The position numbers and the translations under genes are program-made. Under the pieces are notes generated by a model that was not told where the DNA came from, ran no database searches, and worked only from the letters and a program-made list of their open reading frames with translations. Positions 20,240 through 36,367 of a stretch of DNA of 36,569 nucleotides are shown piece by piece; position 1 is the first letter of the stretch; each line of letters starts with the position of its first letter. The DNA comes from a virus: positions 12,514 to 49,082 of IMG/VR virus record IMGVR_UViG_3300030012_004314. The stretch is one strand, 5' to 3'.

Positions 20240-21136
20240 TTACTTACCAAACACTTTATCTAAAGAGTATTTCATTTTAGTTATCCAAGTCTCATTTATT
20301 TGACTTCCAGACGCTGGTTTATTGGATTTTTCCCATAAATTCATCTCTGCCAAAGAAATGCTCTCTTTCAAAAATACCCGAATAGCTACCAAGGGAGACG
20401 ATAAAGCAACGTTCTCGATCGCAGGATAGCCAGCAAATATAAGACCTATAAGTTTATTGTCTTTATTTACAATGGCTGACCCGCTTGAGCCTGGTTTAGT
20501 TGGTATTGTATAAACAGAATATCCAAGTGTATGATATCCTGAAAAATATCCCTTGAAAATAAGCACCGACCCAGGCCAAAACAAACCATGAGGTGCAGCT
20601 AAATTTGCAACTAAATCTCCACGATTTGGTTCCTTGTCAGCAAGTCTTAGGATTTTTGATCTTTTATATACGTCAGTCACTTTCAATAAGCATAGATCGA
20701 ATCTTTTATTGGTCATAATAACTTCTGCATTATAATGTTGACCCTGTAAATCAACAACTTTAAAGGTTGATCCTTTGTTCGATATTATTATGCCCTCTAC
20801 TTTCTGCAAAGTAGGTATTTTGTTTTCACAAGAATGACCAGCAGTCAAAACATATGAAACACTATTGGATACTTCGCTGTGAAAAACAAAAGAACCAGAA
20901 GAGACATATCTCATATTTGCTTTTTGACATTTCTTTTCTCCAGTTTTAGGATCTAATCCACAACCTTCAAGCAAAATAGAATGTTTAATTTGAGCGAATG
21001 CCTCTCTTGGAAGCGGCTTTTCAGACCACATATTAGACATATTGACATTCACTGTTTTACAACCACTTGTACAACTAGTAAGACTCAAGAGTCCGACAAT
21101 AAGAAACTTGACGTAAAGTGATGTTTTTTTCTTCAT
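20240..21136 (-). CDS. Lipoprotein trypsin-like serine protease
   Basis: A chymotrypsin-fold protease anchored to a membrane. The N-terminus has a Lys-rich start, a hydrophobic core (FLIVGLLSLTSC) and a lipobox ending at C22. Catalytic residues are visible in order: H101 in VLTAGHSC, D147 in FDLCLLKV and S218 in TKPGSSGSAIV, followed by the usual LIGLIFAG strand. Four further Cys near 59-70 and 103-149 could form disulphides, agreeing with an extracytoplasmic location. Length (298 aa) fits a single protease domain without PDZ. The start lies 78 nt from the divergent plus-strand genes. The target may be a periplasmic or envelope protein of the host or an infecting rival phage. Confidence 0.8.
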   Translation of the reverse strand: MKKKTSLYVKFLIVGLLSLTSCTSGCKTVNVNMSNMWSEKPLPREAFAQIKHSILLEGCGLDPKTGEKKCQKANMRYVSSGSFVFHSEVSNSVSYVLTAGHSCENKIPTLQKVEGIIISNKGSTFKVVDLQGQHYNAEVIMTNKRFDLCLLKVTDVYKRSKILRLADKEPNRGDLVANLAAPHGLFWPGSVLIFKGYFSGYHTLGYSVYTIPTKPGSSGSAIVNKDNKLIGLIFAGYPAIENVALSSPLVAIRVFLKESISLAEMNLWEKSNKPASGSQINETWITKMKYSLDKVFGK

Positions 21137-24359: not shown

Positions 24360-26900
24360 TTACTTCTTAGTGATAGTTACCTTCATTGGGTCGCCAGCGT
24401 TTAGACCAGTTTCGAATTCGAACTTGGCAAGACCGCCGATGATCATGGTGTCAACACCATCCCAAGCGAAGTCAGCAATGTGAGCAGCTAGAGCAGCTTC
24501 GTCAGCAGCGACACGGGTGTCGATAGAGCCAACATCAGCATTTGTAGCAGCGATTTCAGCAGCTAGAGCGTCTTCTTCATTGCTCAAACGTAGTTCGAGC
24601 GAAGAGTCAGCAGCAGCACGAGCAACTTCTTCATCACCAAGACGAGTCTCAAGCGAAGAGTCAGCAGCAGCACGAGCAACTTCTTCAGCAGCAACACGAG
24701 TGTCGATGGAGCCAACATCACTGTTTGTAGCAGCGATTTCAGCAGCTAGAGCGTCTTCTTCATTGCTCAAACGTAGTTCGAGCGAAGAGTCAGCAGCACC
24801 ACGAGCAGTGATTTCAGTGTTGAGATCGCTTTCAACACCAACAACACGAGTGTCGATAGAGTTTACGTCGTCGTTGAAACGCACTTCAAGGGAAGCTTCT
24901 GCATTGCCAGCACGAACTTCTTCAGCAGCGACACGAGTTTCAATAGAAGATACTTCAGCGTCTGTAGCAGCGATTTCAGCAGCTAGAGCGTCTTCTTCGT
25001 TGCTCAAACGTAGTTCAAGCGAGGAATCAGCAGCAGCACGAGCAACTTCTTCAGCACCAACACGAACGTCTACAGAAGAGACATCACTGTTTGTAGCAGC
25101 GATTTCAGCAGCCAAAGCGTCTTCGTCATTGCTCAAACGTAGTTCGAGTGAAGAGTCAGCAGCTTTACGCTCATTTGTTTCAACAACAATAGCATCTTCA
25201 GCAGCAAGAACACGAGTTGTTAGGGAACCATCAGCAGCAGCACGAGCAGCTTCTTCGTCGCCAAGACGGGTCTCAAGAGAACCATCAGCAGCAGAGCGAG
25301 CAGCTTCTTCAGCAGCAACACGAGTTGTTAGGGAAGCATCAGCAGCAGCACGAGCAGCTTCTTCATCACCAACACGGGTTTCCATAGAAGACATTTCAGC
25401 GTCTGTAGCAGCGATTTCAGCAGCTAGAGCGTCTTCTTCGTTGCTCAAACGTAGTTCAAGAGAAGAGTCAGCAGCGCCACGAGCAGTGATCTCAGTATTG
25501 AGATCGTTTTCAATACCAACAGCACGACCGTCAATAGATGTTACATCATCATTGAAGCGTACTTCGAGTGAAGCTTCTGCATTGCCAGCACGAACTTCTT
25601 CAGCAGCAACACGGGTTTCCATAGAAGACATTTCAGCGTCTGTAGCAGCGATTTCAGCAGCTAGAGCGTCTTCTTCGTTGCTCAAACGTAGTTCGAGTGA
25701 AGAGTCAGCAGCACCACGAGCAGTGACTTCAGCAGCTAGAGCGTCTTCATCAGCAGAGATACGAGCGTCGATAGAAGCACTCATTGCACCTTGAGACTGG
25801 TGCATATTACTAAGAACTAAATTTAACTTATCTTCAGCAGAACCGTTAGTTGGATCTTCTGCGTGCATTACGTCAGCAAGACCACCACCGGAATCTACCA
25901 TAGATTTTTGTAGAACCAAACCTTGAACATCAGCGACAGCGATTTTAGGCATGTTATTTCCTCCATTAAGAGTTATTTGGACCGACGCAGAGTCTACAGC
26001 AGAATTGTCATTTGTAGCTCTGAGTTTATATGAAACCGTTTCTGTAATTGCAACTGTTTTAGAACTGAGTCCTAAGACATCTTCAGTACTACTAAGTATA
26101 CCGCCGACGTACTTAAGTAACTCTAATTTTGTTTCCCCTGAAACACTCCAAGAGAGTGTAACAGAATCACCTGCTTGGGCTACAGAATTAGCCGAGGGAG
26201 TTATTGAAACATTAGATGGAACACCAGTATGAAATGTGATTGGTTCAGCAGAAGCGGGGGTAAAATCAGCTTGATCAAAAGATACTGCTTCATCTGTCCA
26301 GAAGAAGTCCTGAATATATCCTTTTACCCCGGTAGCTGCTGCATTAATATCAGCACCTAGTGTTGGACTAGATGAATTATCAATTTCATATGATACAGTT
26401 GAAGATCGCTGCTCAGTGCCATTAACATATAATCTTGTTGTTCCAGAATTACGCTGGACCATAATGTGCCACCATTTATTAGTAGCACCAGCACCAAGAT
26501 AATAACTAAAGAGCAGATCATGTGCAGCATCACCTGGACTTTCGTCATCGTCTTCAAGATAAACTTGAATAGATCCATTATGATTATAAATACGGAGAGG
26601 ATTTCCTCCTGAATCAGGACCTGTAGCAAACAACCTATCATATGAAGTGAATTGAGTAGGATGAAACCAGAAACCAACTGTGTAGTCTCCAGTCCCTACA
26701 TCAAATACACTAGGGGTATTGAATGTAATACTATCACTAAAGCTAGCCATGTACATTGACTGCTGCCCAAACAATTTCTGAGCAGAAGACATTGCTACAC
26801 CATTATTTTGTGTTATTGCTGTATTACCAAGAAAATCGGTAAATGATCCATCATAAGCTTTAAAATGCACTTTGGCATTAGTTGGCGAAAATACAGCCAT
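24360..26900 (-). CDS. LamG/Ig/coiled-coil fibre protein (846 aa), with internal start
   Basis: The N-terminal about 220 residues form a LamG/concanavalin-like carbohydrate-binding jelly roll (KAYDGSFTDFLGNTAITQNN ... FYIQDFFWTDEA-like ends). Residues 225-313 are Ig-like (PSANSVAQAGDSVTLSWSV). From M317 onward there is a different protein: a short collar (MPKIAVADVQGLVLQKSMVD), then a long coiled-coil rod of repeats built on SSLELRLSNEEDALAAEIAA (six copies, about 390-800) and a beta C-terminal cap (GGLAKFEFETGLNAG). GGAGG precedes the main ATG, and a second GGAGG stands 7 nt before the ATG of M317. Long fibres of this type recognise host sugars. The two parts may be an in-frame fusion of two genes. 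Confidence 0.75.
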   Translation of the reverse strand: MAVFSPTNAKVHFKAYDGSFTDFLGNTAITQNNGVAMSSAQKLFGQQSMYMASFSDSITFNTPSVFDVGTGDYTVGFWFHPTQFTSYDRLFATGPDSGGNPLRIYNHNGSIQVYLEDDDESPGDAAHDLLFSYYLGAGATNKWWHIMVQRNSGTTRLYVNGTEQRSSTVSYEIDNSSSPTLGADINAAATGVKGYIQDFFWTDEAVSFDQADFTPASAEPITFHTGVPSNVSITPSANSVAQAGDSVTLSWSVSGETKLELLKYVGGILSSTEDVLGLSSKTVAITETVSYKLRATNDNSAVDSASVQITLNGGNNMPKIAVADVQGLVLQKSMVDSGGGLADVMHAEDPTNGSAEDKLNLVLSNMHQSQGAMSASIDARISADEDALAAEVTARGAADSSLELRLSNEEDALAAEIAATDAEMSSMETRVAAEEVRAGNAEASLEVRFNDDVTSIDGRAVGIENDLNTEITARGAADSSLELRLSNEEDALAAEIAATDAEMSSMETRVGDEEAARAAADASLTTRVAAEEAARSAADGSLETRLGDEEAARAAADGSLTTRVLAAEDAIVVETNERKAADSSLELRLSNDEDALAAEIAATNSDVSSVDVRVGAEEVARAAADSSLELRLSNEEDALAAEIAATDAEVSSIETRVAAEEVRAGNAEASLEVRFNDDVNSIDTRVVGVESDLNTEITARGAADSSLELRLSNEEDALAAEIAATNSDVGSIDTRVAAEEVARAAADSSLETRLGDEEVARAAADSSLELRLSNEEDALAAEIAATNADVGSIDTRVAADEAALAAHIADFAWDGVDTMIIGGLAKFEFETGLNAGDPMKVTITKK
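24480..25790 (-). repeat. Degenerate tandem repeats in the fibre rod
   Basis: About 1.3 kb of nearly identical blocks encode the SSLELRLSNEEDALAAEIAA unit and AARAAADSSLETRL-type spacers. Six copies of the first unit are near-identical at DNA level, so recombination could change rod length. The antisense strand is open for 425 codons here only because of the repeated codon choice. Confidence 0.8.
25953..25964 (-). promoter_or_regulatory. Internal ribosome binding site in the fibre gene
   Basis: GGAGG followed by 7 nt and an in-frame ATG (25952-25950, residue M317). It encodes Gly-Gly-Asn-Asn in the long product. Use of it would yield a separate 530-residue coiled-coil fibre. Confidence 0.6.
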
Positions 26901-27585: not shown

Positions 27586-27662
27586 TGGTAGACCCGCAGG
27601 GACTCGAACCCCGATAGAATCGCTTATGAGGCGACGTCATTAACCAATTATGATACAGGTCC
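27586..27662 (-). tRNA. tRNA with CAU anticodon, probably tRNA-Ile2 (AUA)
   Basis: Anticodon loop CTCATAA on stem GTCGC/GCGAT. It is not initiator-type (no C1:A72, no GGG/CCC stem pairs). C4:G69 and C5:G68, recognition pairs for lysidine synthetase, are present, and the anticodon arm resembles bacterial tRNA-Ile2. A tilS gene lies 1.1 kb upstream on the same strand. Elongator Met remains the alternative. CCA encoded. Confidence 0.93.
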
Positions 27663-28790: not shown

Positions 28791-29396
28791 TTATGAAAGT
28801 TCTTGATAACTTTTTTCAATTAGTTTTTTGACTGTCTTTTCGATCCCTGGATTTACGAGCTTTGCATTTGGCAGAATATCGTGCCGAATGATGCTGCGCA
28901 TAAACTGCTTATCTTCATTTGCTGGGTCTGTAAGATATGGGATAGACTTTCTATTACACCAATCCTCTAAGGATCGTTTAGGACATAACATAAAAGGTCT
29001 AATAACGTTTTGGTTGCGATAAGGGGTAATCTTACCAAGCCCGTGAATAGAAGAGAATAAATACCACTCTATCACGTCATCTAAGTTATGACCTGTAATG
29101 ACCGTCTCATCAAAACTGTGAAGGAACTTATAACGCTCATTGCGCCAATGCTCTTCGAGGGACTCACCTTGCGGGCAACCATTAAAATTAACACCAACCA
29201 CAAGATCAATATCACGGCTATCACAAAACTCTTTTACAAAACTTTTACATTTAGTTCCGAAAGAAGTACCGTGATCAAAATATGCTGCTGTTACATTATG
29301 GTTGTTTGAAAGAAAATCTAGAATAGCCATAGAATCTGGACCGCCTGAAACGGCGACCGTAAGATCCCTTGGCACCTTTCCCAAAACCTTTAACAT
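28791..29396 (-). CDS. tilS: tRNA(Ile)-lysidine synthetase, catalytic domain only
   Basis: Converts C34 of the CAU anticodon of tRNA-Ile2 to lysidine, changing it from AUG to AUA decoding. The PP-loop SGGPDS is at residues 17-22; further TilS signatures are TGHNLDD (101-107), a WRNERY helix (84-89) and the DPANEDKQFMRSIIRHDILP block (157-176), all in order. At 201 residues it has only the N-terminal catalytic domain and lacks the C-terminal tRNA-binding domains of E. coli TilS. A longer frame starts at 29468, but its first 24 codons lie in tRNA-Val; ATG 29396 has AAAGGAG 5 nt upstream and is chosen. It is co-located with the CAU tRNA and follows tRNA-Val closely. Confidence 0.9.
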   Translation of the reverse strand: MLKVLGKVPRDLTVAVSGGPDSMAILDFLSNNHNVTAAYFDHGTSFGTKCKSFVKEFCDSRDIDLVVGVNFNGCPQGESLEEHWRNERYKFLHSFDETVITGHNLDDVIEWYLFSSIHGLGKITPYRNQNVIRPFMLCPKRSLEDWCNRKSIPYLTDPANEDKQFMRSIIRHDILPNAKLVNPGIEKTVKKLIEKSYQELS

Positions 29397-29407
29397 AACA
29401 ACTCCTT

Positions 29408-29482
29408 TGGTGCGCTCGGTAGGGTTTGAACCTACGACCCCTGCCGTGTAAAGGCAACGCTCTACCACTGAGCTACAAGCGC
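29408..29482 (-). tRNA. tRNA-Val(UAC)
   Basis: Acceptor GCGCTTG/CGAGCGC, anticodon loop TTTACAC on stem TTGCC/GGCAG, T arm GTAGG-TTCAAAC-CCTAC, CCA encoded. It stands apart from the other six tRNAs and only 11 nt before tilS, so both must come from one transcript. Confidence 0.96.
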
Positions 29483-30724: not shown

Positions 30725-31492
30725 TCATTTGTACTCCTGAATCTGAAGTATAGTATCTGCTGGACTTTCTACGCTATGATAATAAGCGCATTTCATTGCT
30801 ATGTCAAGATCATTTCCATCTTTTATTATTTTATCTCCAAAGAAAACACAATCACTGGGTGACTGTAACATATTTTCAAATGCATAGCTCTTATCCCACC
30901 CTTCCCTTGATATATCTATCGATATTTGACCACCAAGACGAAATGATAATCCCCAGCCTGTGAACTCTTCTCTAAGTTGTTGTATGATCTTTCTTCTTTC
31001 GTTGCTTTTGTTATCCCATAGAACGTAGTCTTCTCTTTGTGATAATGTACAGTTTCGACCTATAACAGAAAAATTGATTTGACTCTCTCTCCAGTCTATA
31101 AAAGTCCCTGTTTTAATTTTAGTATGAGTTTTCGCTGCTATTTTCAACAAGACACTTATTATATGATTTATATCTGCATCACTATAGTGATCTTTTAGTC
31201 TCACTTGATGGATAAGGTCAGGTTCTATTGGTCTTGTTTCATCGTCCATATCTAGGTCGCAGTTATAAACCATTGTTCCGTTACAAGTATAAACCCTGTC
31301 AAAAATACCAAGCAAAACAGTAGTTGGTATTTGTTTTTCTACTTTAGCCAGACTAGCTCCAGTTACAAGATGCTTTTTTAGTCCTGGCTTTAGTGATCTC
31401 AGTTCTAGAATCATTTCATTACTGATTGGTTGCCCACTATCTGTAATAGTTCCATCCATATCAAATATTAGAGCTTTTGGTTGAGTTTTCAT
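30725..31492 (-). CDS. HAD-type phosphomannomutase-like enzyme (eukaryotic PMM family)
   Basis: Would interconvert mannose-6-phosphate and mannose-1-phosphate or dephosphorylate a sugar phosphate. The HAD nucleophile pair D11/D13 sits in IFDMDGTITD. The cap contains NFSVIGRNCTLSQRE (141-154) and the core ends with LGGQISIDISREGWDKS (186-202) and FFGDKIIKDGNDLDI (217-231). These match eukaryotic PMM2 motifs (SPIGRSC, GGQISFDVFPDGWDK, FFGDKTMPGGND) closely, far more than bacterial AlgC-type enzymes. 255 aa is the usual length. It lies in the operon after YeaH-SpoVR-PrkA and a small protein (ATGA overlap). GDP-mannose supply for the glycosyltransferases is a reasonable role. Confidence 0.8.
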   Translation of the reverse strand: MKTQPKALIFDMDGTITDSGQPISNEMILELRSLKPGLKKHLVTGASLAKVEKQIPTTVLLGIFDRVYTCNGTMVYNCDLDMDDETRPIEPDLIHQVRLKDHYSDADINHIISVLLKIAAKTHTKIKTGTFIDWRESQINFSVIGRNCTLSQREDYVLWDNKSNERRKIIQQLREEFTGWGLSFRLGGQISIDISREGWDKSYAFENMLQSPSDCVFFGDKIIKDGNDLDIAMKCAYYHSVESPADTILQIQEYK

Positions 31493-31845
31493 AACATATG
31501 ATCTCTTAAAATTGATGAAAAAATAGAAATATCGATCGGTTTCAACATCAAATAGCCGATGATGTCATATTCATACTCGTTTGATAAAAAATAAGGATTT
31601 TCATCTTGATTAAATGTCACTTTACTCTGTTCTGGGAAAGAAAGAACTGTATAAAAGATGATTTTGTTGCCATTTTGATCTTTTTCGCCATAAAAAGCGT
31701 CAACTATTACACCTAGTCGATCAAAACGCTTGGTACGACATAGTGTACCCAAAGGCAGCGCCTCTGTAGGCAATTCTTCAATGGCATACCCATTTACAAC
31801 GTGTTTTTCTGAAATTTCTGCCTCTTTATTTGTCACAAACGTCAT
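31489..31845 (-). CDS. Hypothetical beta-rich protein (118 aa)
   Basis: Unknown. Residues 30-70 show a small-barrel pattern (LGTLCRTKRFDRLGVIVDAF) resembling SH3-like or CarD/KOW-type folds. No cysteine motif or membrane helix. The start ATG 31845 has only a weak GG. The stop overlaps the PMM-like start (ATGA), tying their expression. An AT hairpin GCTTA/TAAGC separates it from PrkA. Confidence 0.55.
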   Translation of the reverse strand: MTFVTNKEAEISEKHVVNGYAIEELPTEALPLGTLCRTKRFDRLGVIVDAFYGEKDQNGNKIIFYTVLSFPEQSKVTFNQDENPYFLSNEYEYDIIGYLMLKPIDISIFSSILRDHML

Positions 31846-31915: not shown

Positions 31916-33859
31916 TTAACTATCTCTCCATAGGTTATTTGAGGCAAATTTGATAACTTCTTCAGCAGAATCTTCATTATATCCATACTCTTCAATCAAG
32001 GTTTTTACCATTTCGTTGTATTTTCCTTGTTGTTTCTTGTCACGGCTCTTAGATTTTGTTACAATTCTTGAAATTTCTTTTACTGAGGATGTTAGCTTGC
32101 TTTCAATAGCCTCTTTAAGCGGTGCGTAACTCATCCAATCCACTTTTTCGCCCCTGCGGAGCTTAGAAAACATATAAGCAGTAATATCTACCCTGAAGTT
32201 GTCTCTTGCTGTGCCTACAATACCGATTTGTTCCTCGATAGAAGCCATAAAAGCCTCATCAGGATTGATTTCTTCATTTGTTACACGATCTTTTACAGTA
32301 TTCATATTGACATAAGCTTCAGCATGGTCAAGATAGTTATTGAAAAGCGATTCTGCCTGCTCGTCATAAGCAGAAACAAAGGCTTTTGTTATTTCCTTCT
32401 CTAGGATGTTCAAATATTCGTCGTGAAGAGTCTTACCAAGGAACTCAAGAAGTCTATTTCTGTCATCCTCAACAACAATCTGATCTTTTACTTGCTTGAT
32501 CAATGCTTCTCGAATAGAAATAGGTGTTACCATATTCTTATCACTATCAGATAAGGCAGCATCAATAGCTTTCATAATAAATCGAGTAGAAATTCCAGTC
32601 ATTCCTTCATCTCTAGCCTCATCTCTAAGGTCATTGATATCTACTTTTTTAACATGCCCCTTTTCAATGACCTCTTCACCAGCATAAAGCTTCATCTTGG
32701 TCAATGGATCGACCTTGTTTGAAGGATGAAGACGACTCAAGACAGCAAACATAGCAGCCACCTCAAGAGTATGAGGAGCAATGTGTCCATCAAAATCAGA
32801 AAGACCTAACATTTTTTCATAAATCTTTTTCTCTTCTGGAACTTCCAAGCAGTATGGTACGTTTACACGGACAATACGATCCAAGATAGCTTCGTTTGTA
32901 TTCTCAGACTTGAATTTATTCCACTCAGCCTCATTGCAGTGAGCTAAAATAACACCATCAAAATAAATCATTGGTCCTTTACCTGGCGAAGGTACTGATT
33001 TTTCCTGAGTAGCGGTAATCATTGTGTGGAGAAACTCGATTTCATTCTTGAAAACCTCGACAAACTCAACGATACCACGATTACCAACATTAAAGGCACC
33101 ATTTAGAGACAATACTCTTGGGTCATCTTCTGAGTAGAGATCGAGTTTTGAAATATCTTCACTACCAACAAGGATTGTTACATCTTGACTGTTAGCATCC
33201 ATTGGGGGAACAACGCCGACACCACGGCGACCACGAACAGAATAGGAAGACTGAGTAACAGGCATAGACATATAATCATTATTAAACTCTTCTGCCAGCC
33301 TGTGACGACAAACTGGGCATAAATCGCCTTCAATCTTTATGCCGTATATCTTGTGGAATTCATCACGCAGAGATCTTGGTATCAAGTGTAGTGGTTCTTC
33401 GTGAATTGGACAACCATCAATATGATACATTGGCTCAAGCATCTCTAGTGCAGATTTGATATGCTCCATAAGGGCGGATTTACCAGCACCTACAGGACCG
33501 AGAAGTAGGAGTACTTGGCGACTTTCTTCGCCTTTCATAGCAGCAGAGCGCAAGAAGCGCATAATCTTAGCAAGGGAGCGTTCCATACCGAAAAACTTGT
33601 CTTGAAAATAATCATAGGTACGAACTTCTTCGCCACCAAACAATTTGTTGCAGCGGGAGTTAGTAGTTGACATTCTAGTGACACCTTTATCAGCCAATAC
33701 ATCATAAAGTTTTTTATGGGCTAAGTTAGCTACAGATGAATCCTTTTCTACAATCTTGAGGTAATCTTCCATAGATCCAGAGAACTTCTCTGTTTTTTTT
33801 CTACCTTTATGCTTTTCTATAAGTTTTAAAAACTTATCTGATTTTGTTGATTTAGACAT
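31916..33859 (-). CDS. prkA: PrkA/YeaG-type AAA+ serine kinase-protease
   Basis: A full-length 647-residue protein. The N-terminal AAA domain has Walker A GPVGAGKSA (121-129), the LIPRSLRDEFHKIYGI segment (about 160-175) and a CPVC pair (about 183) seen in the PrkA family, then the PrkA C-terminal domain with ITATQEKSVPSPGKG and IYFDGVILAHCNEAEW (about 300-320). PrkA is reported as a stress-related protein kinase and, in B. subtilis, a protease-like regulator. In E. coli yeaG works with yeaH in stationary and nitrogen-starved cells. The start follows the SpoVR stop after 3 nt with GGGAG. It is the third gene of the trio. Confidence 0.93.
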   Translation of the reverse strand: MSKSTKSDKFLKLIEKHKGRKKTEKFSGSMEDYLKIVEKDSSVANLAHKKLYDVLADKGVTRMSTTNSRCNKLFGGEEVRTYDYFQDKFFGMERSLAKIMRFLRSAAMKGEESRQVLLLLGPVGAGKSALMEHIKSALEMLEPMYHIDGCPIHEEPLHLIPRSLRDEFHKIYGIKIEGDLCPVCRHRLAEEFNNDYMSMPVTQSSYSVRGRRGVGVVPPMDANSQDVTILVGSEDISKLDLYSEDDPRVLSLNGAFNVGNRGIVEFVEVFKNEIEFLHTMITATQEKSVPSPGKGPMIYFDGVILAHCNEAEWNKFKSENTNEAILDRIVRVNVPYCLEVPEEKKIYEKMLGLSDFDGHIAPHTLEVAAMFAVLSRLHPSNKVDPLTKMKLYAGEEVIEKGHVKKVDINDLRDEARDEGMTGISTRFIMKAIDAALSDSDKNMVTPISIREALIKQVKDQIVVEDDRNRLLEFLGKTLHDEYLNILEKEITKAFVSAYDEQAESLFNNYLDHAEAYVNMNTVKDRVTNEEINPDEAFMASIEEQIGIVGTARDNFRVDITAYMFSKLRRGEKVDWMSYAPLKEAIESKLTSSVKEISRIVTKSKSRDKKQQGKYNEMVKTLIEEYGYNEDSAEEVIKFASNNLWRDS

Positions 33860-33862
33860 TTT

Positions 33863-35179
33863 TTAGAACTCCCATTCTTCGTCTTCTATGATTGTTGTAA
33901 ACCTTATATTTCCAGACCATAAATCATTTATAAAAGAAAATACCTTATTAGCCTCTGCTAGTTCAAGATCTCTTCCATCGTGCTCGTGTTCCAGGATTAG
34001 TGTTCCGTCTTTTGTAAGTTCTTTCACCATTATCACGGGAACTGAATTGAGCCCTATATTTTTAATTAGCTCGTCACGGATGGTTCTCCAGCTTTCTTGC
34101 CCAGAAACATCACGTATTCGAGTAACTCCGTCTGTACGATTTGTAGAGTAAGTAAATAAATTCAACTCTTTGCATAAATCAAGATCGAAGTATGTTTTAA
34201 TGAAGGTTTCATCATTATGTGTCTCTCTTACACGCAAACATTCCTCAAACCCCATTGTGTTTTCAATATGTTTAAATATTTTATACCCAAGATGATAAGG
34301 GTTGACTCTACCTAAATGAGGTCGTATGACTTGATTATGAAGGCGAATAAAAGAAAGATAATAATCATCAGGCATATTCAACTCCTGAACAATCTTTTCA
34401 TGCATTAAAACCGCCCAACCCTCATTCATCACTTTGGTAAGTGCTTGCGGAACAAAGTAAGATGATTCGTCAGCGACAATATTAATCAAGTCTCTCTCCC
34501 AAGAATCAAGCATTGGGTTGTGTTCAGCAAGGAACTTGAGAAGGTTTTGATCTGGTTCAAGTGGTACCTTATTCAGATCAAAGTTATCCCATTTTCCGGT
34601 GGTATCATTGAGAACTAAATTTTTATAATACTCTCTTAGTTTTTTATGATCCCTTCTTTTTACTCCAGGAGTTCGGGGCACCTGATATCTGATTGAGTGG
34701 CAAGCGTCAAGTATATTTTCTACTTTCTCAACACCTATATTGGGATCTTCCATATATTTCTTAACTCTTTTCCCAGCAGCCTTAAATCGATCCAAAACAG
34801 TATCAGCACGAGTTTCAGAAAACATTCTATTATTTTTGAAAAAATCACTGTGACCAACACAGTGTGCCATTGTTAGGATATGAGTAGGCATAGGGTTCTC
34901 AGTCATCAGATATGCAATACTGGGGTTGGAATTGATAATCATTTCATACGGTAAGCCAGACATACCCAAGTTATATTCTGTTTGAATGCGATCAAAAGAT
35001 TTTCCATATGACCAGTGCCTATAATGCGTTGGCAGACCTGAATAAGCCATGTGACCAATCATTTCTTTATAATCACATATTTCATATGCTATTGGGTACC
35101 AATCTAGACGAAACTTTTCTCCAAGTTCACAGATTTTATCATCCCAATCTTGAAGTTCTTCCATAGACCAGTCAGCCAT
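33863..35179 (-). CDS. spoVR: SpoVR/YcgB family protein
   Basis: A 438-residue member with the family's N-terminal signatures DWYPIAYEICDYKEM (about 26-40), SGLPTHYRHWSYGKSFD (about 47-63), YNLGMSGLPYEMIINSNPS (about 69-87) and the MAHCVGHSDFFKNN block (about 105-118). It continues through SYFVPQALTKVMNEGWA (about 230-246) and NPYHLGYKIF to a charged C-terminus. SpoVR affects spore cortex formation in Bacillus and its E. coli homologue YcgB is a starvation protein; the biochemical role is unknown. GGAGG overlaps the end of the YeaH gene just before ATG 35179. The protein is intact. Confidence 0.93.
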   Translation of the reverse strand: MADWSMEELQDWDDKICELGEKFRLDWYPIAYEICDYKEMIGHMAYSGLPTHYRHWSYGKSFDRIQTEYNLGMSGLPYEMIINSNPSIAYLMTENPMPTHILTMAHCVGHSDFFKNNRMFSETRADTVLDRFKAAGKRVKKYMEDPNIGVEKVENILDACHSIRYQVPRTPGVKRRDHKKLREYYKNLVLNDTTGKWDNFDLNKVPLEPDQNLLKFLAEHNPMLDSWERDLINIVADESSYFVPQALTKVMNEGWAVLMHEKIVQELNMPDDYYLSFIRLHNQVIRPHLGRVNPYHLGYKIFKHIENTMGFEECLRVRETHNDETFIKTYFDLDLCKELNLFTYSTNRTDGVTRIRDVSGQESWRTIRDELIKNIGLNSVPVIMVKELTKDGTLILEHEHDGRDLELAEANKVFSFINDLWSGNIRFTTIIEDEEWEF

Positions 35180-36367
35180 TTACTTGCCTCCAAACAGTTT
35201 CTTGAACGATTTCCATATATCATTATGAGTACCAAGTCTAACTTTTTTAAAAGACTTGTCTTCCAATGGTGTAACCTTGTCCCAAAGTAGTTCGACTGAT
35301 CCGAAAGTTTGAAAGAAGCTACCGTGTTCGTACTTTGAAATTTCGCCAATCTCAGTATAGCACATCATCTGGTTCATCTCTTTTAGGCGTTTGAAAGATT
35401 CTATAGCATTATCATTGTCTGTAGACCAGTTATCCCCGTCACCACAATAGAATGTATAAATATTCCAGTTGTTTGGATGATATCTTTTTTCAATGATCTC
35501 TTCCGCTTTTACCAATCCTGTAGAGACAAGCGTACCACCACTGGGAGCCCTCGTGAAGAACTGTTCTTCATTTACCTCGAAAGCTTCAGAAGTGTGGGAG
35601 ATAAACACCACGTCAACTGAAGAATACCTATGGTTGATAAATTGGTATAACAAGAAGAAGAAACTACGAGCTAAAAACTTTTTAGACTTGGTCATAGAGC
35701 CAGAAACATCCATAATAAAAAAGATTACGGCTGTAGTATTGTCTTTTTGCACAGGAGCTATATGTTTGTACCTAAGATCACTCTCATGGAAAGTGAAGCG
35801 ATCATCACTTTCTGGGTCGTGTGTACCAGCTTTTATAGCAGCCTTTTTTCTTCTAATCTTTTGTTTTATTGTTTCTTTTTTTGATAATCTTGGTCGAATA
35901 CCATAAGGTCTTTTACCTTTACGCTTCATTTTCTCTTCAGTGATAAACTTGAAGCGCTTCTTCTCTAGATCTGGTAAGTTTAGGTCTGCAAATAAGTATT
36001 CTGCCAACTCTTCCAAGGACATCTCAATCTCATACATCTCTTCGCCGGCTTCATTCCCAGCTTTATCGCCATTGCCCTGTCCTCTTTGTTTTTGTTTCTT
36101 ACCTATCTGTTGACCTTCTTTTATATCGTGCCCTTGGGCAGAGCCAACCTTTTTATTATTTTCATTACTTCCATAAACAAAACGATGCTCTCTAATACCC
36201 TTTACAGGTATCCGAACCTTCTTGTTTCCGTTTTGTCCGATAATACTTTCTTCAGCAACAACATCTCTTATGCTATCTTTTATAGCACGTTCGATCTTTT
36301 TCCTGTGACGAGAACGATCAGCAGATGATCTATCTGCAATTGTCTTGTGTTCTTTGAAAGTACTCAT
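35180..36367 (-). CDS. yeaH: YeaH/YhbH (UPF0229, DUF444) von Willebrand A-like protein
   Basis: 395 residues. The Arg/Lys-rich N-terminus (DRSRHRKKIERAIKDSIRD) matches the family, as does the YEIEMSLEELAEYLFADLNL segment (112-131). The A-domain begins AVIFFIMDVSGSMTKSKK with metal site D220-x-S222-x-S224, and FTRAPSGGTLVSTGL (about 268) holds the T/S of the metal site. Members are genetically linked to PrkA and SpoVR in many bacteria. AGGAGG stands about 10 nt before ATG 36367. It is the first full gene of the trio; the order here is YeaH, SpoVR, PrkA. Confidence 0.93.
   Translation of the reverse strand: MSTFKEHKTIADRSSADRSRHRKKIERAIKDSIRDVVAEESIIGQNGNKKVRIPVKGIREHRFVYGSNENNKKVGSAQGHDIKEGQQIGKKQKQRGQGNGDKAGNEAGEEMYEIEMSLEELAEYLFADLNLPDLEKKRFKFITEEKMKRKGKRPYGIRPRLSKKETIKQKIRRKKAAIKAGTHDPESDDRFTFHESDLRYKHIAPVQKDNTTAVIFFIMDVSGSMTKSKKFLARSFFFLLYQFINHRYSSVDVVFISHTSEAFEVNEEQFFTRAPSGGTLVSTGLVKAEEIIEKRYHPNNWNIYTFYCGDGDNWSTDNDNAIESFKRLKEMNQMMCYTEIGEISKYEHGSFFQTFGSVELLWDKVTPLEDKSFKKVRLGTHNDIWKSFKKLFGGK

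Follow-up and report, generated by a model that had tools for sequence, protein, structure and literature searches.

What does a bacterial PrkA-YeaH-SpoVR system, widespread among bacteria and of unsettled biochemistry, do in the genome of a phage? The question is raised by a stretch of viral DNA of 36,569 nucleotides (hereafter the window), which represents bases 12514-49082 of a 50,577-base IMG/VR virus record. Read along the minus strand from 36367 to 31916, it encodes YeaH/YhbH (DUF444; 35180..36367, 395 aa), SpoVR (33863..35179, 438 aa) and PrkA (31916..33859, 647 aa), in that order. The original prediction of three intact, tightly spaced genes with family motifs proved correct: all three are uninterrupted open reading frames, separated by 0 bp (SpoVR/YeaH) and 3 bp (PrkA/SpoVR), and both Pfam and the functional residues described below agree with the assignments. 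Each family is represented at full length by matches above the curated Pfam cut-offs, namely DUF444 (1.1e-104), SpoVR (3.1e-118, residues 3-377) and AAA_PrkA (2.5e-143) together with the PrkA C-terminal domain (9e-80); the SpoVR_C domain, at 25.5 bits, falls slightly below its 27.6-bit cut-off. The NCBIfam equivalog cut-offs were missed by PRK15455 (394 versus 576 bits), PRK11767 (267 versus 679) and TIGR02877 (380 versus 468), and the top NCBIfam model for the window's YeaH, YhbH, likewise scored under that model's cut-off. Judged by these profile scores, the three proteins are members of their families and not close NCBIfam equivalogs. Downstream of the trio, also on the minus strand, follow a conserved 118-aa protein (31489..31845), for which family searches returned no match, and a HAD/phosphomannomutase-like hydrolase (30725..31492; Pfam PMM, 7.6e-40), an arrangement shared with 13 close relatives.

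The residues on which function would depend are in place. PrkA has the Walker A motif GPVGAGKS, in which K127 is the equivalent of K116 of Escherichia coli YeaG, and it retains the lysine equivalent to YeaG K426; mutants of either YeaG residue fail to complement in E. coli (PMC4664914). Its solved relative is 9xip (E 7.1e-95). For YeaH, the N-terminal half of the structural model is poor; the C-terminal half is modelled as a von Willebrand A (vWA) domain, with a best PDB match of E 3.7e-7 and the MIDAS domains of Rea1/MDN1 among the matches. All five MIDAS residues (D220, S222, S224, T279 and D310) are invariant in 49 aligned sequences, and the model has YeaH as a vWA fold with a complete MIDAS. 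The SpoVR model (pLDDT 84.5) found no fold match in the PDB. H106, H110, E253 and H260 of SpoVR are invariant in 51/51 aligned sequences, and the arrangement H106-x3-H110 ... E253, together with the invariant H260, suggests a putative metal site. We do not call SpoVR a protease, because position 107 is a cysteine here and the glutamate of an HExxH motif is missing. What PrkA does biochemically is contested in bacteria as well: the Bacillus anthracis protein showed negligible protease or kinase activity in a study that also cites an earlier report of an ATP-dependent protease PrkA in B. subtilis (PMC13001217).

The genome had been described as phage-like, and this label is correct because the same record carries T4-like baseplate wedge genes, which lie outside the window. 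The window itself contributes PhoH, seven tRNAs, one tmRNA and a laminin-G-type protein that matches baseplate families. The major capsid protein gp23 is absent from the window's 50-kb record and present in a close relative (L005), where its nearest matches are an uncultured huge phage, Microcystis phage Mel-JY01, Flavobacterium phage immuto and Rhodothermus phage RM378, the last of which is the Far-T4 reference phage (PMC4360716). More broadly, when the window's record and those of 35 trio relatives were examined, a strong match to T4 gp23 (E 3.4e-62 or better) was seen in 13 of the 36, most of the other 23 being fragments. By gene content, the window virus is a large T4-like phage, and the nearest gp23 matches of the close relative place it as Far-T4-related.

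Scanning viral contigs for SpoVR yielded 119 relatives, the best 80 of which were kept. The original prediction had proposed a search for the trio in large phage genomes, and the outcome was clear: in 77 of these 80 loci the full trio is present as YeaH-SpoVR-PrkA, the remaining three ending at a contig edge, so that the order is far from chance. YeaH is split over two frames in 3 of the 77. Distance matrices of the three genes correlate with one another (Mantel r 0.86-0.93; 0/500 permutations above 0.15) and with those of gp23 (r 0.80-0.90, n=14, 0/2000 permutations), and close pairs of trio genes differ with dN of 0.05-0.18 at saturated dS. These sequence comparisons indicate that the trio is under purifying selection and that, as its distances follow each other and those of gp23 while dN stays low relative to dS, it has been passed down with the phage as one unit over a long time. 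It resembles a tool of long standing in these viruses.

The phylogenies that had been called for give a consistent picture of its ancestry. Viral copies of each gene form a clade of their own on a long stem, with support of 100 for PrkA and, in a smaller set, of 98 for SpoVR, 95 for YeaH and 93 for PrkA. Among the best 80 cellular loci, the closest PrkA proteins are clostridial and negativicute (∼60% identity), and SpoVR and YeaH group with the same clostridial-type bacteria at ∼40 to 46%. The PrkA-YhbH-SpoVR operon of these Clostridia and Negativicutes (Sporomusa, Clostridium) thus comprises the same three families, all linked, as the nearest cellular relatives. However, that operon reads PrkA-YeaH-SpoVR throughout, whereas the viral clade has the rotated order YeaH-SpoVR-PrkA and so departs from the typical bacterial arrangement. 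Gene order does not define the system, since in E. coli, which has YcgB besides YeaG/YeaH, no SpoVR gene adjoins yeaGH, unlike in the viral trio. The E. coli proteins belong to the same families, and both their Walker A lysine and the K426-equivalent lysine are kept in viral PrkA, although the latter is only ∼32% identical to an Enterobacter YeaG copy and, like the clostridial type, has serine in place of YeaG R232.

A second scan of the viral collection, with E. coli YeaG as query, produced 138 further relatives. Of the best 80, which were kept, 66 have PrkA-YeaH-SpoVR in the bacterial order. Testing 17 records of this set revealed a gp23-family match in 10, seven of them strong, and ribosomal protein L4 in none. 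Some members may be host DNA, for instance L280, which is 98% identical to E. coli; even so, the set reveals another lineage of large T4-like contigs, independent of the first, that carries a proteobacterial-type trio. On one of its viral contigs, which is 202 kb long and has gp23, a full-length elongation factor G (L291:10988-13057, 953 bits) immediately follows the trio. Enterobacter phage LAU1 has yeaG-yeaH without SpoVR in the first 3.3 kb of its 30.8-kb record, and these genes, located at the very start, may be flanking host DNA and not phage genes.

Further copies are found in cultured phages. The Thermus phages phiYS40, TMA and MN1 carry YeaH-SpoVR-PrkA in the same order as the window, but their proteins are only 22-34% identical to the window's, sit on very long branches, come from viruses of Thermus hosts and, in PrkA, have aspartate at the K426 position. 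A 635-kb uncultured phage adds another trio. Together with the second lineage, these separate copies mean that complete trios were acquired more than once, and their independent retention argues that all three genes are needed together. That several unrelated large-phage lineages keep the trio intact suggests three proteins acting as one machine. In Ralstonia jumbo phage RsoM2USA, SpoVR and PrkA are annotated two ORFs apart; its SpoVR is 56% identical to that of Vibrio and hence of the proteobacterial type, unlike the window's, and the paper reports no functional test (PMC8504454).

The original prediction named no worked-out phage example. Phage copies had already been annotated, in phiYS40, MN1 and others as well as in RsoM2USA (PMC8504454), while the open-access literature, to which our search was confined, yielded no functional study of any of them and no paper that treats the three genes together as a viral unit. 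In oxygen-minimum-zone viruses, spoVR has been reported as the most abundant sporulation-type gene, and the marine viral gene from the Eastern Tropical North Pacific oxygen minimum zone was read as modulating the physiological state of the host; the main text of that article makes no mention of PrkA and, in the passages found, deals with neither gene set, lineage nor operon, whereas the window has the full trio (PMC8940887). For viral spoVR, a defined three-gene unit can now replace the loose label of a viral sporulation gene.

As to what this unit might do, we view it as a virus-adapted version of the bacterial PrkA-YeaH-SpoVR system in a clade of large T4-like (Far-T4-related) phages. PrkA would form an ATP-driven AAA+ ring, YeaH would be its MIDAS-type adaptor, much as VWA proteins partner MoxR AAA+ proteins, SpoVR would be a third and possibly metal-binding component, and the three would jointly remodel target proteins. 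The comparison draws on the MoxR AAA+/VWA pairs RavA-ViaA, NorQ-NorD and CbbQ-CbbO and on Rea1/MDN1, in each of which an AAA+ ATPase is combined with a MIDAS VWA protein (PMC9976466, PMC3893208); the likeness is one we infer, PrkA constituting a Pfam family of its own for which MoxR offers an analogy only, and SpoVR having no counterpart in MoxR/VWA systems. In the least certain step, the machine, made by the phage and probably late, would hold a nutrient-limited host in a quiescent yet productive state, allowing virions to be completed in slow-growing cells. This reading follows from bacterial precedent: deletion of yeaG or yeaH gives the same phenotype in E. coli, where the pair quiesces metabolism under nitrogen starvation as a "metabolic brake" (PMC4664914, PMC10954441), and PrkA of B. 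anthracis is required for sporulation and survival of osmotic stress (PMC13001217). By analogy, control of host state by the trio during late infection is the best explanation we can offer, and we hold it tentatively, ahead of a role in virion assembly and, further behind, of interference with the host system. A related suggestion of the original prediction, that the trio controls translation, had no backing apart from the tRNA, tmRNA and TilS genes that the window carries outside the trio.

The competing idea of virion assembly draws its strength from where the genes lie in other phages. The trio could serve as a morphogenesis chaperone for a structural protein, folding it, remodelling it or equipping it with a cofactor while heads or tails are built. 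It comes directly after gp23, a head-tail adaptor-like gene and two conserved genes in 25 sister loci, with the start of YeaH overlapping the stop of the upstream gene by 4 bp at 16/26 junctions. On the contig of L049, the trio is preceded by a head maturation protease and followed by genes for tail sheath, tail tube and baseplate hub, and trio divergence, as noted, tracks that of gp23. Their location in a block of virion structural genes suggests late synthesis in these sister phages and makes an assembly role possible. Such placement, seen in one subclade, fits assembly as well as, or better than, host-state control. For the window itself, where no capsid genes adjoin the trio on the 50,577-base record, late expression is an extrapolation. 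On the other hand, the trio lies away from structural genes in other subclades, beside the small conserved protein and HAD hydrolase in that of the window and beside a helicase and small genes in a third; in the second lineage it adjoins genes such as that of EF-G, and bacterial trios work without any virion. PrkA is also absent from 14 related gp23 contigs, although these are fragments. On balance, we regard a dedicated assembly chaperone as unlikely, if the most serious competitor. A little less doubtful, yet still on the unlikely side, is the broader proposal that in the Far-T4-like lineage the trio, with an order of its own and set between head and tail genes, was absorbed into late morphogenesis, be it as an assembly chaperone or as a late device acting on host state. 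The subclade with the trio among virion genes is in effect a natural experiment, and the Thermus phages offer cultured test beds.

Several observations concern the immediate surroundings of these loci. In the structural block, the pair of genes that immediately precedes YeaH had no match in a PDB profile search. The T4 late promoter TATAAATA was considered as a signal for the trio and rejected: 5 matches were counted where 3.1 would be expected, and the only one inside the trio is on the opposite strand. Just upstream of YeaH, L003 (record bases 48900-50577) encodes three consecutive small proteins sharing an MKITKSxLRxxIKEE-like motif, and L008 has one protein of this type directly before YeaH; the motif might serve to target internal virion proteins to the capsid or to mark them for processing. 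A PLP-dependent (cysteine-synthase-type) enzyme, absent from the window, comes right after PrkA in the latter relative (L008:9274-10251), and a NifU-type protein is encoded nearby (L008:11850-12149).

Less probable than an assembly role is that the viral copies act against the host, joining or competing with its PrkA system or blocking an abortive starvation or defence response. PrkA homologues are indeed widespread in bacteria, with a match in 141/144 genomes of one phylum, and YeaG affects toxin-antitoxin transcription as well as rpoS in E. coli (PMC4664914). Yet a dominant-negative copy would not require three genes, intact catalytic residues and strong purifying selection, and with viral PrkA only ∼30-35% identical to the proteobacterial and bdellovibrionotal types, it would take an unusual host for mixed complexes to form. 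Compared with host-state control, we therefore consider such interference quite improbable.

There remains the suspicion that the trio is carried neutrally or by accident, or that bacterial DNA ended up in a viral bin, for which one might cite host-like second-set records such as L280 and three loci with the viral order (L089-L091) that sit in public bacterial metagenome-assembled genomes (MAGs). A bacterial chromosome and a recent capture from a host were the origins against which the original prediction had cautioned, and this suspicion is already refuted for the present clade and hardly credible: the trio is intact and under purifying selection, its clade and order are exclusively viral, phage structural genes share its contigs, and not one of the 17 second-set records tested contained ribosomal L4. 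The three MAG loci most likely represent phage contigs that were sorted into MAGs, L089 more tentatively than the other two. L089 falls inside the viral clade in the PrkA tree, L090 (NHDW01000006.1; Methylococcaceae TMED69 MAG) is on a 306-kb contig that itself has gp23, and the MAG of L091 (PBIO01000025.1; Halobacteriovorax SP2999) holds a second PrkA, 35% identical, on another contig. On these grounds, we did not trust these loci for host inference.

Finally, the window contains other features of interest. A TilS-type tRNA lysidine synthetase (28791-29468, minus strand; NCBIfam TilS domain, 111 bits against a cut-off of 93.6) is encoded close to a phage tRNA whose anticodon is CAT (27586-27662, minus strand); instead of a tRNA-Met, this tRNA may be a tRNA-Ile2 that depends on lysidine. 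The phage tmRNA (13792-14122, minus strand; Rfam, 83.7 bits) specifies the tag ANDDFLLAQAA. A trypsin-like serine protease (8.9e-12) is encoded at 20240-21136 on the minus strand. The 846-aa laminin-G/PDZ-type gene (24360-26900, minus strand) has a G+C content above that of its surroundings, and within it a 425-aa ORF runs antisense (24517-25794, plus strand).
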